Shown piece after piece: positions 4,860 to 29,605 of a stretch of 42,988 nucleotides of DNA (its first letter is position 1; each line of letters opens with the position of its first letter). The stretch comes from a virus. The stretch spans positions 1 through 42,988 of the IMG/VR virus record IMGVR_UViG_3300046506_000488, one strand, 5' to 3'. A model generated the notes under the pieces. It was not told the DNA's origin. It did not search any database and saw nothing but the letters and a program-made list of their open reading frames with translations. The translations under genes and the position numbers were made by a program.

Positions 4860-7064
4860 TTACCACCACCTTTTCAGATCAAAGATTTGAGCGAAGCCCT
4901 TCCGGGCAACTGTGTTTCCGGCCACCGAGAGATGCTTGAAGTCGGGCGCCATCAAGCTGGGCGGAATGACATCGTTGGCGATTGCCGTGTTGTCCGGGCC
5001 AGTTGCCGTGAGGCCGGCGACGGTCAGGCCGCATTCGATAAGGTAGCGGCGTATGTCGAAGAACCGGCCTGCCGTCAGGATATTGCCTGCCGCATCCCAT
5101 GTCGCGCCCCCGAACTGGACGGCGCAGGCATTATTGTGGGCAACGATGCGGTTATAGCCTGTCGATCCGCTATTCTCGGATCCGTCGGACAGCGTCGTGA
5201 TCCCGACGAACAGGATGCGCGGGATCAGGTTTTCGTTGTAGTTGAAAGCGTTGGTATACCCGGCCTGCGTGACGGATGCGTACTGCGTATTGATGTCGTT
5301 GCGGCCGATCCAGATCAGGTTAGCAGCGCGACGGCCAAGGCGGCCCACGTCCGGAATGAAGACCGTACCGGCCGGGCACGCGATCGTCGCGCCCGCCATA
5401 GTGCGCAGGAACGTGTAGGCATCCGACGTATCTTTGATGATCCGCCCCGGTACCGATCCGCTGGGCGTCTCCAGCGTTCCGGATAGCTCGGCATAGATAT
5501 GATAGGCATTGTTCGTCAGCAGCGGGATGCTGAGCGTGACGGCAATAGATCCGCTCGCGGGGATCGTGTTGCCGGCCATCGTAACCTGCGTTGGCTGCGA
5601 ACCCTGCCGGGCCAGAATGCGCACCGTATCCTGCGCAGCGATCCCGCCATGATAGACCGACACATCGGGCCTGAGCGCCGCGAGCTGATCGATGTAGGGC
5701 GAGTTTCCGGTTGCCGTGTCGGAAAGAGAATCTCCCCAGACATACAATTTCTTCGGCGTCGCGGTCGCCTGCCGGGGTGCGGCGCTGCCATTGACCGGCA
5801 CGACATATCGAAGGTTGCCGGTGACGTAGCTGACCAGGCCGCCATCTATAGCCGGTGAACGGGCATCAGTGCCCAACGTCGTGAGGAGGATGGCGCCGCT
5901 GCCATTACGCGCCTCGCTCTCCAGATATTGCCTGCCATCATCGTCCAGGCTGGGGATGACGACATAATTCGCATCATAGAGAAGCGGCTCGGGCACCTCG
6001 ACAGCCGAGGCCCCGGAATATTCCGAACCATCCAGACGGACGCCGTAGGCGATGACATCGTCAGGGTCGGCGAAGACGTAAAGCCAGCCGCTCTCCGGGG
6101 GAAGGCTCTCGAACCTCAGAGCCACCTTCACACCATCCGTGGCCGATGCGACCAGATCGGCAAGGAAAGCCGGCGTCACCTGAAGATCGCCGATATAGAA
6201 TTGGCCATCGGCCTTCGCCCACCAGGAGACGACGCCGGCAGGATCGATATAAGCGAACCCACCACCCGCTTCGGCGGGGAGCTGCTCGAACCGGCCGCCG
6301 ATGGGATCCGCAAACATGCGCGCGATCACGTCCGGCGCAAGGGCGGGCGGGTCGATGCTCTCGGGCGGAGCCTCGAACAAGTCCGGCGCCAGCACACCAT
6401 CGTCGCGCACCAGGCGAACGAAGGTATCGGCGGGATCGCCGATACCGAACATATAGCCGGTTTCAGCCGCCAATGGCTCAACCGTGGCAGCGAGATCGTC
6501 AGCGGTCTCCTTGACGCCATCAATGCGCGTTGCGAGCTTGCCAAGGGTATTGCTGCTCGTGTCGGCCGTGCCGATGAGCGCCGTGGAAGCGGCAATTATG
6601 GCGTCGCCCTGCGCCGCACTCACAGGCTTGTCGGCGTCCGCCGTATTATCGACGCTCTCAAGCCCAACGTCAGCTTTGACGAGGGACACGTCGCCGGCCA
6701 TTCCCGCAACCGACTGAACCGGCGCAGCGGCCGCCGCCTCGGCGGCCGTTACCTTCGTAGCGATTGCGCCGGCCAGCCCAGCTTCGGCGCTTGTAGCGCG
6801 AGATACTTCGGCCCCAATCGCTGCTACCTGGGCGGTGTCAGCGGCACCGCGAGCCGTAGCCTCTGCGTTGAGGTTGCCTTGAATGGCAGTGTCAGCAGTG
6901 GATCGGGTCGTTGCCTCAGTGTTGATATTGGTCTGAAGCCCCGCAGCCGTCGCGATGAGCGAGGCATCCAATGAGCCCAAGGCATCGAGCACGGCCGCGC
7001 CCTCGCCGACCGATACCTCGATAACCTGGCCGCCATTGCTGACGACGGTGACGTCGATGCTCAT
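4860..7064 (-). CDS. tail fibre/spike with C-terminal SGNH (GDSL) hydrolase domain
   Basis: 734 residues from the ATG at 7064, chosen because it overlaps the upstream stop (ATGA); an in-frame ATG lies 45 bases earlier. Residues 20-210 form an Ala/Thr-rich coiled-coil shaft. At about 200-350 there are three imperfect repeats of a Dp-x-x-...-DG-x-x-y-G type (RLVRDDG, AKADGQFYIG, RLDGSEYSG). The C-terminal half holds an SGNH hydrolase: GDSLSD near 444 (nucleophile Ser), a Gly block near 473, GRNDIN near 587 and DFKHLS near 708 (Asp/His). The family includes carbohydrate esterases, so it probably deacylates host surface polysaccharide during adsorption. Confidence 0.85.
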   Translation of the reverse strand: MSIDVTVVSNGGQVIEVSVGEGAAVLDALGSLDASLIATAAGLQTNINTEATTRSTADTAIQGNLNAEATARGAADTAQVAAIGAEVSRATSAEAGLAGAIATKVTAAEAAAAAPVQSVAGMAGDVSLVKADVGLESVDNTADADKPVSAAQGDAIIAASTALIGTADTSSNTLGKLATRIDGVKETADDLAATVEPLAAETGYMFGIGDPADTFVRLVRDDGVLAPDLFEAPPESIDPPALAPDVIARMFADPIGGRFEQLPAEAGGGFAYIDPAGVVSWWAKADGQFYIGDLQVTPAFLADLVASATDGVKVALRFESLPPESGWLYVFADPDDVIAYGVRLDGSEYSGASAVEVPEPLLYDANYVVIPSLDDDGRQYLESEARNGSGAILLTTLGTDARSPAIDGGLVSYVTGNLRYVVPVNGSAAPRQATATPKKLYVWGDSLSDTATGNSPYIDQLAALRPDVSVYHGGIAAQDTVRILARQGSQPTQVTMAGNTIPASGSIAVTLSIPLLTNNAYHIYAELSGTLETPSGSVPGRIIKDTSDAYTFLRTMAGATIACPAGTVFIPDVGRLGRRAANLIWIGRNDINTQYASVTQAGYTNAFNYNENLIPRILFVGITTLSDGSENSGSTGYNRIVAHNNACAVQFGGATWDAAGNILTAGRFFDIRRYLIECGLTVAGLTATGPDNTAIANDVIPPSLMAPDFKHLSVAGNTVARKGFAQIFDLKRWW

Positions 7065-22672: not shown

Positions 22673-24667
22673 CTACCTCCTCGTGAACGGGTTGCGCGGT
22701 TTCGTCGGCGCGGCGCGGCGGAACTGGTCGGGCTTCGCTGGCTTCTTCGGCTCGGTCGCGGCCGTCGGTGGCGGCTCGCCGCCTTCGCCGGTCGGTTCCT
22801 TCTTCGGTGCGCGCGCCGCGCGATCGCCGAGCAGGTTCTGCCATTGCTTGGGCGTCCACCGATCCGCGCCCAGCGATATCGCCACGGCGCGCGCATAGAC
22901 GGCGTTATCGAGAGCCTCGTTGCGGGGTCGAGTAAGCTGCCATTCCGATCGGGTGCGGCCGTTCCGCATTTTCACGCGGACCAGCTGTTCGGCGACGAGC
23001 TGCTTGATCCATTCGTCCGTCGTACCGTCGGGCAGATAGACGTAGCCGTCCGGGTATTCTTCGCCGTCCACCGGGCGATCCAGTTGCAGCTGGCCGTATA
23101 GCTCCAGCTTCAGCATCGACGTGCCGACCGTCCAAAGCCGCACGCCCTTGTTGATCTTCTTGCCGGCGATCGTGACGTCGACCCAGGTGGGCCCCGCTAT
23201 CGCTTGTGACGCCTCCAGCGTCTGTCGCCCCTTGAGGGCCATGACGAACCCGGGGTGCCGGCGTGCCCAACCATAGACAAACTGGGTATTCTCACCGTCG
23301 CCGGAGTCGATACCGACCCGCGCGAGCCGCATCTGCCGCCCGTCTTCGCGCTTCCACAATCCAGCGACAACCGCGTCCAGCTTCGCCCAGGTCTTTTTAT
23401 CGGCGATCGAGCCGGTGACCTCGATATGCTCGACGAAGGCGCGCCGGCGATCGGGACCGAACGCCCAGATATCGAGCTCTATACGCCCGCCGCCTGCGCG
23501 CTGAACGTCTGCCGCTCCAACCAAGAGGCCGGCCCATGCCGGCGGCGTGACGAGAGCCATCTCCTTCTCCCGGCGATCATAGAGGCGTTGCCATTCCGGC
23601 GCCTCGCCGCGCTCCTGCCAGACCTCGCCGAGCACCTGATTGACGAACGTCTTGAGAAGGTTCGGATTCTTGCAGACCGCGATGAATTCTCGGGCCAGTT
23701 CCAGCCAGGCCGCGCCTTCGTGCTGGCTATACGCCGACCAGATATGGAACGATCGGTGGCGTGGGCCGGCATCGGGATTGTGCGCCCGCCACTCGCCGTT
23801 CTCGTCCATCCACGGCTTGTGCGATTCCTCGATCTCGCAGCCGTTTTCGCACTGATACCAAGCCCGGGTGGGCAAATTCTTCGGCTCCCAGCGGATGCCG
23901 GCGCCGGTGCCATCGCCCCAGATGAGATACTGCATGTGCCCGCATTCGGGGCAGGGGACGTAACGGTGTTCCTGCGTTCCCTGGTGGAACAGTTCATCGA
24001 TGCGACTGAGGCCCGCCAGGATCGGCGTCGAGCCGGCCGCGCTCAGCGGCTCGTCGGACGTCAAATTGCGCTTATAGGCCAGCCGGCCGGGGTCTCCCTC
24101 TAGGCCGGACGATTCCGGATAGCCGTCGGGCTCTTCGAGCAACACCACATCGCACGTGACGCGGCGGAATTCCTTCGGGCTGTTCGTGCCCTTGATCTGG
24201 ATCCAGCCGCCCTTGAAGCGCTTCGCCCTGACCTGGTTGTCGCGGTGCCGCGGCTTGAACGTGGCGACGGCGCGGACGGCGGGCCATTGCAGCACCGGCT
24301 CGAGATCGTCGCGGCTGTACTTTTCGGCGTCATCGATCGTCGGCTGGTAGACCAGCATCCGGCGCGGCCGGTGGGCGATGCTGTAAGCGATGAAGTTCTG
24401 GACGATCTGCGAGTAGCCGATGCGGCTGCTCTTCTTGACCGAGATGTATCGGGTGTGCGGATCGGTGAAGGCGTCGGCTATGCCGATCTGAAACGGGAAT
24501 GCCCGGAATCGCTTGCCGCTATCCAGGCGCGCATGCTTCGCCGACCATTCCGAAAGCGATAGATCCGGCCGTGGCTTCCATCCTGCAAACCAGCCGCGCA
24601 CCGCTTGCGCGATCGCGCCACCGGCAACCTCAATCGTCTGGCTCTTCGTCGGGCTCGCTTTCGTCAT
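22673..24667 (-). CDS. terminase large subunit, lambda gpA family
   Basis: 664 residues. The ATPase part has a lambda-type P-loop (VKKSSRIGYSQ near 77-87) and Walker B (VVLLEEPDGYP near 174-184). A zinc-binding element with CPECG near 239 and CENGC near 270 follows, as in GpA proteins. The C-terminal nuclease region includes ADVQ near 388-391 and a Cys-poor Arg-rich tail with Pro/Lys repeats that may bind the portal. It cuts concatemers at the packaging site and drives DNA into proheads. Overlaps the small subunit by 38 bases. Confidence 0.93.
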   Translation of the reverse strand: MTKASPTKSQTIEVAGGAIAQAVRGWFAGWKPRPDLSLSEWSAKHARLDSGKRFRAFPFQIGIADAFTDPHTRYISVKKSSRIGYSQIVQNFIAYSIAHRPRRMLVYQPTIDDAEKYSRDDLEPVLQWPAVRAVATFKPRHRDNQVRAKRFKGGWIQIKGTNSPKEFRRVTCDVVLLEEPDGYPESSGLEGDPGRLAYKRNLTSDEPLSAAGSTPILAGLSRIDELFHQGTQEHRYVPCPECGHMQYLIWGDGTGAGIRWEPKNLPTRAWYQCENGCEIEESHKPWMDENGEWRAHNPDAGPRHRSFHIWSAYSQHEGAAWLELAREFIAVCKNPNLLKTFVNQVLGEVWQERGEAPEWQRLYDRREKEMALVTPPAWAGLLVGAADVQRAGGGRIELDIWAFGPDRRRAFVEHIEVTGSIADKKTWAKLDAVVAGLWKREDGRQMRLARVGIDSGDGENTQFVYGWARRHPGFVMALKGRQTLEASQAIAGPTWVDVTIAGKKINKGVRLWTVGTSMLKLELYGQLQLDRPVDGEEYPDGYVYLPDGTTDEWIKQLVAEQLVRVKMRNGRTRSEWQLTRPRNEALDNAVYARAVAISLGADRWTPKQWQNLLGDRAARAPKKEPTGEGGEPPPTAATEPKKPAKPDQFRRAAPTKPRNPFTRR

Positions 24668-25133
24668 CGAAGCCCCCGCCAGCCAGCTCGGCGACGCGCG
24701 TTGCGCTCAGCTCCTCCAGGGCGTCGCTCAACGCGGTATCGATCCGCTGCTTCAGCGCCACGTCACCCTTGGCTACGATCGCGCCGACGCGCAGCAGGCG
24801 GGCGAGCGACAGTTCGATTACCGACGCGACCGCCGACGTCATATCCGGCAGCGATGCCAGTTCCCTGCGACGCTCCGCGTTTTCCATCGCGACACGATCA
24901 GCTTGCTCGCTGGCAAGTCGCGCTCGCTCAACCTCAAGGCTCAGCGAACTATCGCCGTCGACGATGCCGCGCTTTTTCAGTCGGTACTCGACAAAGGCCT
25001 GAACGTATTCGTCCGCTGTTGATCCGGGTCGGGGTAACTCGCCCGCCTGCATCCTGTCGCGCACCCAGCTGTCGGACATCGCGAGCAGCCATGCGACCTC
25101 GGCTCTAGTGAGAGTGACGGTGTCTATATTCAC
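24630..25133 (-). CDS. terminase small subunit, Nu1-like
   Basis: 167 residues from a GTG (25133) with GGGAGG eight bases upstream. An N-terminal winged-HTH (LTRAEVAWLLAMSDSWVRDRMQAG) is the DNA-recognition part of Nu1-type small terminases. The middle is a long charged helix (SLEVERARLASEQADRVAMENAERR) for self-assembly, and the acidic C-terminus (DDESEPDEEPDD) probably binds the large subunit. It recognises the packaging start site, likely the upstream non-coding stretch 25134-25226. Confidence 0.88.
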   Translation of the reverse strand: MNIDTVTLTRAEVAWLLAMSDSWVRDRMQAGELPRPGSTADEYVQAFVEYRLKKRGIVDGDSSLSLEVERARLASEQADRVAMENAERRRELASLPDMTSAVASVIELSLARLLRVGAIVAKGDVALKQRIDTALSDALEELSATRVAELAGGGFDDESEPDEEPDD

Positions 25134-25226
25134 AAATGCCGCCTCCCTTTATTTGGGATTGGCAGAAATTAGCCAAAATCTATTCTTAGGCGGCGGCACT
25201 TACGCCTATCTCATGGCTACAAAACT
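25134..25226. other. candidate packaging (cos/pac) region
   Basis: This 93-base gap is the only space directly upstream of the small terminase, where lambda-type phages keep cos. It holds two dyads, TTGGC (25159-25163) with GCCAA (25172-25176) around an AT-rich loop, and TAGGCG (25187-25192) with CGCCTA (25203-25208) around a GC-rich core, plus the terminase ribosome binding site. The dyads could be terminase binding or nicking sites. No overhang can be defined from sequence alone. Confidence 0.35.
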
Positions 25227-25952
25227 TCAGCGCTCCCGCCCCCCGCATGCGCAATTCGCCCGCCTAGGACCCAAAGGTGGGGGGCCAGGGGTGGGCAGCA
25301 TCCGATTGTGCCTCCCGAAGTTGCATCCTGCGCAAGCAATGACCACGTTCGAGATCCCGTGCAGCCCTCCCTTGCTCAGTGGGACGACGTGATCGAGCGT
25401 GGCGTCAGTCGGCAAATAGGTCCGCCTGCCGCGCTTGAAAGTAAGGCTGCACCCGCAATGCGCGCACAATTCCGCTGCGGCGAACATTGCCTGCACAACA
25501 TCGGTAGTAAGCGTGCCGTCCGATTGTGACCGCTCACGGCCGCGCCTAGCCTGCTTGGAAGCAATCATCCTGGCTCGGCGCCTATCAGCAGCGGCCTCAT
25601 GCCAGCGCAGGTCGGTGACAGGATCATTGATCAACATGGCCGCACAGAGAAGAATGGCCGCAAGTCGCATCTGATCAATGGCGGCCCTGTCGAGAGCCTG
25701 GCTCTCACGGCCCGGCACGCCGGGCCGAAAGTTGCGGCCTTGGCGAACTGCCCTGAGGCGTCGCGCTTCTTGCTTACCTTCAGTGGTGCGCCACCAATCA
25801 TGCCCTTTACCCCTGGTGTGCGGGGTATGGCACGCAGAGCAACGTCTATATCGCTTTCCGGCCTTGAGCGCGAACACCTCTATGGGCTTTACTTCAGCGC
25901 AGCCCGCGCAGCGTTTGAGGGATCCCCGGATGGGCGCAATCTCACCCGACAT
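25227..25952 (-). CDS. HNH endonuclease upstream of terminase
   Basis: 241 residues. An N-terminal treble-clef-like segment (CAGCAEVKPIEVFAL and CSACH) is followed by a linker and a C-terminal HNH domain: CAHCG near 163, TLDHVVPLSKGGLHGISNVV near 183-202, and CAGCNFGRHN. The HNH His, Asn and His positions and the two Cys pairs look intact. Phages of the HK97 kind carry an HNH protein next to terminase that helps cos cleavage and packaging, a likely role here. Confidence 0.85.
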   Translation of the reverse strand: MSGEIAPIRGSLKRCAGCAEVKPIEVFALKAGKRYRRCSACHTPHTRGKGHDWWRTTEGKQEARRLRAVRQGRNFRPGVPGRESQALDRAAIDQMRLAAILLCAAMLINDPVTDLRWHEAAADRRRARMIASKQARRGRERSQSDGTLTTDVVQAMFAAAELCAHCGCSLTFKRGRRTYLPTDATLDHVVPLSKGGLHGISNVVIACAGCNFGRHNRMLPTPGPPPLGPRRANCACGGRER

Positions 25953-26351: not shown

Positions 26352-26368
26352 GCTCAAGATGCACGAAA

Positions 26369-26386
26369 GCCCACCGTCAGGTGGGC
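26369..26386 (-). terminator. intrinsic-type terminator between NusG-like gene and late operon
   Basis: GCCCACC and GGTGGGC form a perfect 7-bp GC-rich stem with a 4-base loop. On the minus strand it is followed by TTTCGTGC, a short T-run. It lies downstream of the NusG-like gene and before the packaging genes, exactly where a late-gene control terminator would be expected. Confidence 0.6.
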
Positions 26387-26411
26387 ATGGTGTCGGGCAG
26401 GTCTCTAACGT

Positions 26412-26468
26412 CGCGGAAAGCGCATGCTTTCACCGCGTTGGTGGCGAGGGCGGTAAGGTCCGAAGACC
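26412..26468 (-). promoter_or_regulatory. tandem hairpins downstream of the NusG-like gene
   Basis: Two further dyads lie between the NusG-like stop (26497) and the terminator. GGTC-TTCG-GACC (26457-26468) is a UUCG-tetraloop hairpin. CGCGGAAAGC pairs with GCTTT-CA-CCGCG (26412-26437) as a 10-bp stem with a small bulge. They are placed to act in the nascent RNA before the terminator, for example as a loading or pause site for the antiterminator. That role is inference. Confidence 0.4.
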
Positions 26469-26496
26469 AGCCTGACCAATTAACTCACCTGTCCGC

Positions 26497-27051
26497 TCAA
26501 GCGGCAATGCCCGTGTGGGCCGGTGCTTCGTGTACCCCATCTGTTCGCAGTAGGAAAGTGGCAATCTTGAGCCGGAAGCGCCCACCGAACGCGACGAGGG
26601 CGAACTTGCCATCACCGTCTTGCACCACACCTGACAGGCCGGCCGCAGGGCCCTCCGTAACACGCACCGTTTCGCCCTTGGGGAAGACGTGACGCTTCGT
26701 CTTCAACTGCGTCAGGCGATGACGCTCCTCCTCCTTCCGCATGCCCGCAACCTCGCTCTCGGCTATCAGCGGATACCTGCCGAAATGGCGGAAGATTGAG
26801 AATTGGGGGTGGGGGCTGACCGGCTGAGCGATGACTGCCGATAGATCAGCCAGCCGATTAGCGCGGACAAACACGAACGTGGGCATGATCGCGAGATCAA
26901 CCTCGATGGTGACCTTACTGCGCGGGCGTTGACGGCGGAGCACGTGCATCGGCGTCCATGTCTCAAAGCCCGCGCCTGCCAATGACTTGGCGAGCGCGAG
27001 CGTGCGCGCTCCCGATGTGCGGAGAATGCACCAGTCTGCGGCTTTCCTCAT
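26497..27051 (-). CDS. NusG/RfaH-like transcription elongation factor
   Basis: 184 residues with the two-domain NusG layout. The NGN domain (about 5-105) has WCILRTSG at the start, FETWTPMHVLRRQ and the PTFVFV strand. A charged linker leads to a KOW domain (about 125-165) with FPKGETVRVTEGPAAGLSGVVQ. NGN binds the beta' clamp helices of RNA polymerase and suppresses pausing, and KOW contacts Rho, ribosome or RNA. A prophage copy at the end of the early operon, ahead of a terminator, probably acts as a late-gene antiterminator. Confidence 0.85.
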   Translation of the reverse strand: MRKAADWCILRTSGARTLALAKSLAGAGFETWTPMHVLRRQRPRSKVTIEVDLAIMPTFVFVRANRLADLSAVIAQPVSPHPQFSIFRHFGRYPLIAESEVAGMRKEEERHRLTQLKTKRHVFPKGETVRVTEGPAAGLSGVVQDGDGKFALVAFGGRFRLKIATFLLRTDGVHEAPAHTGIAA

Positions 27052-28745: not shown

Positions 28746-29366
28746 CTACACGGCCTCGGTTTCGGGGGCCGCTGGGATGCGAACAACCTTGCCGATGTCC
28801 GGCGTCCACGATGACGCCGTCTGGGCTTGGTTGAACGCGACGAGTGCCGCCTCGATCGCCGCGCCCAGCGCATCAGCGCCGTTCACATGCTCTTCGGCAT
28901 CCTCGAATGCTTCCTCGCACATGTCTTCGATCGCGCGTTCGACGAAATCTGACGCCAACCGCTTCGGATCGATGCTGAGCAGCGCACTGTCACAAGGGTG
29001 CGCCCATTGCCCGGGGTGATCGTCCGAAGCGCTTTCCATGTCGTGGAAATACGTGTCTGTGCCGACTAGGCAGAGCGCGCCACCATCGTATTCAACGACC
29101 GTCGCTTTCGCGATGACGGCCGCGTCTATGCAGCTGCTGCATTTCGTCGAGCTCGCGAACTTGAGCTCCTCGCCGCACGCGCAATGCCGGATCGGCGGTG
29201 GCGGAGGCGGGACGCAGCAGGCTTCGGCGCGGCGCAGGGCTTCTGCACGACCAGCCTCCCCGCCGCCAAAGAAGCGGGGTGAGGTGGCGTTGCCGCATTT
29301 CCCGCACGCATAAAGGCGCGGGGTTGCTTCTGTGTCGTCCGCGAAGATGAGAGGGCGCGCTTCCAT
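28746..29366 (-). CDS. zinc-binding-type hypothetical protein
   Basis: 206 residues from ATG 29366, overlapping the GapR stop. Three Cys pairs in the first 90 residues (CGKCG, HCACG and KCSSC) suggest one or two zinc sites, separated by a Pro-rich CCVPPPPPPIRHC stretch. The C-terminal 120 residues are acidic and helical (DFVERAIEDMCEEAFEDAEEHV). It may bind nucleic acid or protein partners in the replication module. No named family. Confidence 0.6.
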   Translation of the reverse strand: MEARPLIFADDTEATPRLYACGKCGNATSPRFFGGGEAGRAEALRRAEACCVPPPPPPIRHCACGEELKFASSTKCSSCIDAAVIAKATVVEYDGGALCLVGTDTYFHDMESASDDHPGQWAHPCDSALLSIDPKRLASDFVERAIEDMCEEAFEDAEEHVNGADALGAAIEAALVAFNQAQTASSWTPDIGKVVRIPAAPETEAV

Positions 29367-29605
29367 CACGCTAAACCAAGCGCGGATTTGTACGTGTCGA
29401 GCAGCGCCTCGGCTTCGTCCCGGGCGTGCTTTTCCATCTTGCGAAGGCGGACGATGGCCTTCATCGTCCTGGTGTCATAGCCGTTCGACTTAGATTCGTT
29501 GTAAACGTCCCGGATGTCGTCGGCCATGCCGGCTTTCTCTTCTTCCAGGCGCTCAATGCGCTCAATGAAAAGGCGAAGTTGATCGCCTGCTACGTTGTCG
29601 GACAT
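29366..29605 (-). CDS. gapR: GapR-like nucleoid protein (DUF2312)
   Basis: 79 residues with an AGGAGGG ribosome binding site. [20 protein letters not shown], then [19 protein letters not shown] and [15 protein letters not shown], form the three-helix DUF2312 pattern, nearly the full length of chromosomal GapR. GapR of Caulobacter clamps around overtwisted DNA and stimulates type II topoisomerases ahead of moving polymerases. It lies beside a beta-clamp homologue, so it probably assists phage replication or substitutes for the host copy. The chromosomal form is essential or important in many alphaproteobacteria. Confidence 0.88.

Follow-up and report, generated by a model that had tools for sequence, protein, structure and literature searches.

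NusG is a universal transcription factor, and paralogues of it are known to activate operons for capsules, toxins and antibiotics; one of them, RfaH, reads a 12-nt DNA element (ops). In phage lambda, the Q protein reads through a promoter-proximal terminator. LoaP, a NusG paralogue, depends on a hairpin in the leader RNA of the operon that it targets (PMC12691694), UpxY works close to the gene that encodes it, in the leader 5' of upxY (PMC7819879), and the loading site of lambda Q is a DNA element (PMC7171158) that belongs to its own late promoter. RNA takes part in processive antitermination in conAn of pLS20, with a protein, and in HK022 put, without one.

The stretch of DNA analyzed here (the window; all 42,988 nucleotides of the IMG/VR record IMGVR_UViG_3300046506_000488) carries on its minus strand, in this order, genes for an integrase, a DNA-clamp-like protein, a GapR-like protein, an O-like replication initiator, an unknown protein and a nusG-like protein. 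On the same strand there follow a small ORF, an HNH endonuclease (25227..25952, the first annotated late gene), the small (TerS, 24630..25133) and the gpA-like large (TerL, 22673..24667) terminase subunits, a portal, a protease, tail proteins, a holin and an endolysin, in agreement with the initial annotation, which had placed the packaging, morphogenesis and lysis genes downstream in one direction. There is good evidence for a NusG paralogue at this boundary between early and late genes in temperate phages. Among the early genes, the GapR-like DNA-binding protein is full-length (29366-29605, minus strand; Pfam E 6e-34). Among the late ones, a long stable hairpin (25115-25205, minus strand; z -3.8) lies upstream of and over the TerS start and pairs the GGGAGG ribosome-binding region of TerS, a possible case of translational control.

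The nusG-like gene (26497..27051, minus strand) is an ORF encoding 184 aa: an NGN domain (residues ~1-100), a linker helix, a KOW domain (~121-172) and a disordered tail (173-184) with the final residues TGIAA. In profile searches the protein matched PHROG 6386, "transcription antiterminator" (E 9e-27), and the NCBIfam models of UpxY (E 4e-12), RfaH (2e-6) and NusG (8e-5), the three NCBIfam scores lying below the curated cut-offs (46.4 bits against 100, 27.9 against 144.5 and 22.5 against 135.7, respectively). UpxY was the closest curated model for all 27 proteins scanned, and PF02357 was matched by 17 of 27 relatives. The AlphaFold2 model, computed from an input of 27 relatives, consists of NGN and KOW domains (mean pLDDT 90.5), and its best PDB matches are NusG and RfaH structures (E 2.6e-7 to 1e-5), recruited RfaH being among the fold matches. 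ORF, profiles and predicted structure thus agree with the earlier claim that the gene preceding the late genes encodes an NGN-KOW protein. As the phage-protein profile also picks up housekeeping NusG (~1e-9) in more than 100 Sphingomonas genomes, the family link to NusG is secure, the phage protein being a paralogue in its own right; it is distinct from housekeeping NusG, which is encoded separately in the same genomes. Judged by profile matches and the predicted fold, the window protein is a specialized paralogue of the NusG/RfaH/UpxY type within the NusG/Spt5 superfamily. A TBLASTN search of the protein against about 50,000 phage records gave no match even at E 1, and no annotated isolate with the protein was found there.

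A conserved structured RNA of about 90-110 nt (26397..26505, minus strand) starts within the last codons of this gene and comprises four helices, all given here on the minus strand. P1 (26492..26505) is the hairpin GCCGC-UUGA-GCGGA with the stop codon UGA (26499-26497) in its loop; in P2 (26443..26489), GGUGAG (26489-26484) pairs with CUCGCC (26448-26443) and encloses a UUCG hairpin (26468-26457); P3 (26412..26437) has the form CGC...GAAAGC-AUGC-GCUUUC...GCG and is the 10-bp hairpin reported before; and P4 (26401..26409) is a tiny triloop hairpin, GUU-AGA-GAC, of 2-3 bp, which covaries and marks the 3' edge of the element, conservation fading within a few bases past it. The two hairpins initially described after the gene, at 26468-26457 and 26437-26412, are both present and lie inside the covarying RNA, but the UUCG loop of the first is not conserved, the inner P2 loop of relatives being UU, AUCU, GACU and others. 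A second subclass of the element (L101, L105, L108, L110-L113, L257, L041, L046 and L081) has an unchanged P1, and its P2 contains an internal loop whose two sides carry conserved GAUCU(G/U)G and UUGCG, respectively; this loop is a candidate that could serve as a protein-binding surface.

The case for an RNA rests on covariation: folded as a single sequence, the window element shows no unusual stability (z -0.33), although its minimum-energy structure contains P1, P2 and P3. In a plain MAFFT alignment of 15 loci, not fitted to the structure, 29 cells showed double-sided changes that keep the pair, versus 9.5 in shuffles. In a set of 31 sequences aligned with the model, which leans towards the model by construction, 93% of cells were paired, 15 of 21 pairs had double changes, and double-change cells numbered 84, compared with 24 in shuffles and at most 17 in partner-slid controls. 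Changes on both sides were seen in relatives for five of the six P2 pairs and for all three outer pairs of P3. G-U pairs (27 seen versus 51 in shuffles) are tolerated and A-C pairs (five versus 31) much less so, which points to an RNA of coding sense. The covariance model R1, built without the window, located the window element (26505-26397) at E 2.3e-7 and 42.3 bits, the next best site in the window having E 0.014, and the model R2 gave the element 52.9 bits. From the alignment A5, unguided RNAalifold recovered no helices other than P1 and P2, and an Rfam scan yielded no match at E 5 in the window region and none at the element in relatives. When the downstream hairpin is included (26366-26510, minus strand), the minimum-energy fold of the window flips to a long helix between the inner region of P2 and the P4 region; this helix is absent, by eye, from the nearest P4 variant (L019), and possibly it is a window-specific switch or due to chance.

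The initial annotation had proposed a check for conserved sequence between the gene and the terminator in homologous phages. With R1 and R2, the covarying RNA was found directly 3' of the nusG-like gene, nearly always in a single copy, in 27 of 35 non-redundant viral loci taken from IMG/VR. No clear element was seen in the eight other relatives (L026, L036-L039, L042, L045 and L047), which include the most divergent proteins; these proteins may work without the element or with another site. Scans blind to the protein were made in several sets. In about 200 Sphingomonas genomes 16 of the 18 matches at E 0.01 adjoin a nusG-like gene, as do nine of the 11 elements that were new relative to the protein searches; of the two exceptions, one (L079) resembles a decayed prophage remnant and the other (L082) is at chance level. 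Two new elements were found in 299 genomes of the family and two in 94 viral loci picked by short DNA patterns, all four adjoining the gene, which brings the newly found elements of the protein-blind scans to 13 of 15 next to a nusG-like gene. The 298 genomes of the order contained only four elements, all of them previously known cases. Of 289 genomes from the class, only the query's own Sphingomonas genome encoded the protein, so the range of the system seems limited to Sphingomonas and its near relatives. The short DNA pattern AGCGGCCNGCGACGA was also tried as an element finder in viral contigs and discarded, as its matches were mostly due to chance.

Several individual loci deserve mention. 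In L074 (genome G203) the nusG-like gene is spread over two reading frames and the RNA element is still strong (77 bits), as in a recently broken prophage copy. A GIY-YIG-like ORF follows the nusG-like gene in L026 and L029. The prophage L002 has up to three element copies (5535-5618, 6287-6367 and 6795-6874) between the nusG-like gene and the terminase; a GIY-YIG-like ORF has entered behind the first of them, possibly by homing into the site.

Compared with the described systems, the locus shares with LoaP and the dfn/mln operons of Bacillus velezensis a NusG paralogue, a nearby target and an RNA hairpin linked to the paralogue. LoaP, however, uses a single UNCG-type hairpin in the leader of a biosynthetic operon, whereas the phage element has four helices and starts inside the regulator's own gene, and a UNCG-type tetraloop is found in the inner P2 of the window (UUCG) and replaced by other loops in relatives. 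UpxY of Bacteroides is the closest curated model and likewise acts near its own gene; here the differences are that the phage protein scores below the family cut-off (46 vs 100 bits) and that the phage element lies downstream of the gene. RfaH is, similarly, an NGN-KOW paralogue recruited to chosen operons, but its signal is 12 nt of DNA and that of the phage a long covarying RNA. The geometry of lambda Q and tR', which had been invoked for this locus, holds for position only, the gene being the last early one before the late genes: the protein is unrelated to Q, as had been noted, the conserved signal is an RNA located where the regulator gene ends, and neither a conserved terminator nor a late promoter was found. 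Such a signal resembles LoaP/dfn, lambda N/nut or conAn more than it does Q; what the locus would share with conAn and put is an RNA element in processive antitermination, the sequence comparison of the RNA having consisted of the negative Rfam scan.

The GC-rich hairpin that had been described as a terminator with a T-run does exist (7 bp, 26386-26369, minus strand), but the run, TTTCGTGC, has only three T's and the structure fails a standard terminator scan. Together with its TTT (26366..26386) it is a weak, window-specific and non-conserved terminator candidate. In 27 loci, a search by pattern and by hairpin strength showed no enrichment of terminators or strong hairpins behind the element, and a conserved terminator at this place was rejected on that search. 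No sigma-70-like site was found on the minus strand between 23500 and 30000 with the E. coli consensus, which may not fit the host.

We propose, with a probability of about 0.62, that the NusG paralogue and the cis RNA form a bipartite late-gene switch giving processive antitermination. The nascent transcript would fold into P1-P4 as the host RNA polymerase moves past the 3' end of the nusG-like gene; the newly made paralogue would recognize this element, or the complex paused there; its NGN domain would dock it on the polymerase, host NusG being displaced or excluded; and the modified polymerase would resist pausing and termination, Rho-dependent or intrinsic, over the head, tail and lysis region of about 24 kb. 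The folded RNA is probably the docking site from which the NusG relative lets the host polymerase into the virus-building genes. The data establish the protein family, the RNA and its covariation, its near-exclusive pairing with the gene and its position ahead of the late genes; direct binding, recruitment, antitermination and the identity of the terminators overcome are inferred. Precedents are LoaP with its UNCG hairpin (PMC12691694), conAn with protein plus RNA (PMC8955417) and HK022 put (PMC9378689). The earlier suggestion of the hairpins as a possible loading site agrees with these data, as both lie within a conserved RNA found almost exclusively beside this gene, and the site is best called putative. 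Speculatively, the spacing of P3 and P4, with P4 10-15 nt behind P3, is reminiscent of a pause hairpin with its pause site, and P4 might act as an ops-like DNA hairpin. The lack of a conserved terminator or strong hairpin after the element, the eight of 35 relatives without a clear element and the ordinary stability of the single-sequence fold count against the switch.

The linkage of gene and RNA would also be expected if the RNA merely regulates the nusG-like gene, as a 3'-end element acting in feedback, translational coupling or mRNA stabilization, while the protein acts elsewhere. Such a role agrees with the overlap of P1 with the stop codon and with the fact that the element nearly always touches the gene. 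Overlap is not required, however: measured from the first base of the stop codon, the start of the element in viral loci ranges from 15 nt ahead to 39 nt behind, and in four of them P1 lies 11-39 nt past the stop. Moreover, P2-P4 reach about 90 nt into the region ahead of the late genes, and the NusG paralogues LoaP and UpxY work in leader regions (PMC12691694, PMC7819879). We regard regulation of this gene only as unlikely.

It is likewise doubtful that the RNA alone modifies the polymerase, in the manner of HK022 put, with the NusG paralogue adding processivity only, like ConAn1 with the conAn2 RNA. There are precedents for both parts of this explanation, since put RNAs (about 70 nt, two stem-loops) need no dedicated protein (PMC9378689), and in conAn the RNA antiterminates and the protein confers processivity (PMC8955417), but the phage element is almost never present without the nusG-like gene.

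In most loci the element lies 1-3 kb upstream of TerS/TerL, where its inverted repeats could be a site for DNA packaging (cos/pac). Yet a single family of elements stands before diverse terminases: in 32 loci (window included), the first large downstream ORFs match large subunits from several unrelated PHROGs (phrog_9 in 16 loci, phrog_15 in 10, phrog_2 in three, and others), so that the cassette is linked to the boundary between early and late genes and not to one kind of packaging machinery. The tolerance of G-U and avoidance of most A-C pairs is, furthermore, a sign of RNA, and the element tracks the nusG-like gene; a packaging site is therefore disfavoured and seems highly improbable.

Twenty nine of 35 non-redundant homologues end in Ala-Ala, the residues just before being variable. 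The underlying DNA pattern, GC[C/T]GC-NNNA-GC[G/A]GC, runs across the stop codon in two registers and lies wholly past the stop in several loci, the position of P1 in relatives being independent of frame. Because the P1 pattern spans the stop codon, the near-universal Ala-Ala is a by-product of P1, and because the pattern shifts register or passes the stop, leaving a protein without Ala-Ala, the conserved signal resides in the nucleic acid. That the frequent Ala-Ala is instead a ClpXP-type degron, with DNA conservation as its consequence, is very hard to credit and is refuted for most members (exceptions are L036-L038 and L045), as P1 is kept past the stop in L003, L017, L031, L034 and L062, whose proteins do not end so, and conservation runs 90 nt past the ORF. 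The distant relatives L036, L037, L038 and L045 end in Ala-Ala and have no clear element; in L036-L038 the start of the next ORF overlaps the nusG-like stop codon.

Beyond the proposed switch of NusG paralogue and cis RNA, we see even odds that this phage lineage has swapped Q/N-type late control for a NusG paralogue that loads on host RNA polymerase via a new family of structured RNA, encoded where the paralogue's gene ends; a single transcript would then supply both the factor and its docking site. Those parts of NusG-family reviews that a search for "phage" covered mention no phage late-gene regulator of such a kind. If true, the arrangement would represent a new means by which temperate phages of alphaproteobacteria express their late genes, and the dozens of diverged protein-RNA pairs would form a natural series for studying how NGN/KOW proteins read RNA. 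The covariance model can be used for annotating Sphingomonas prophages.
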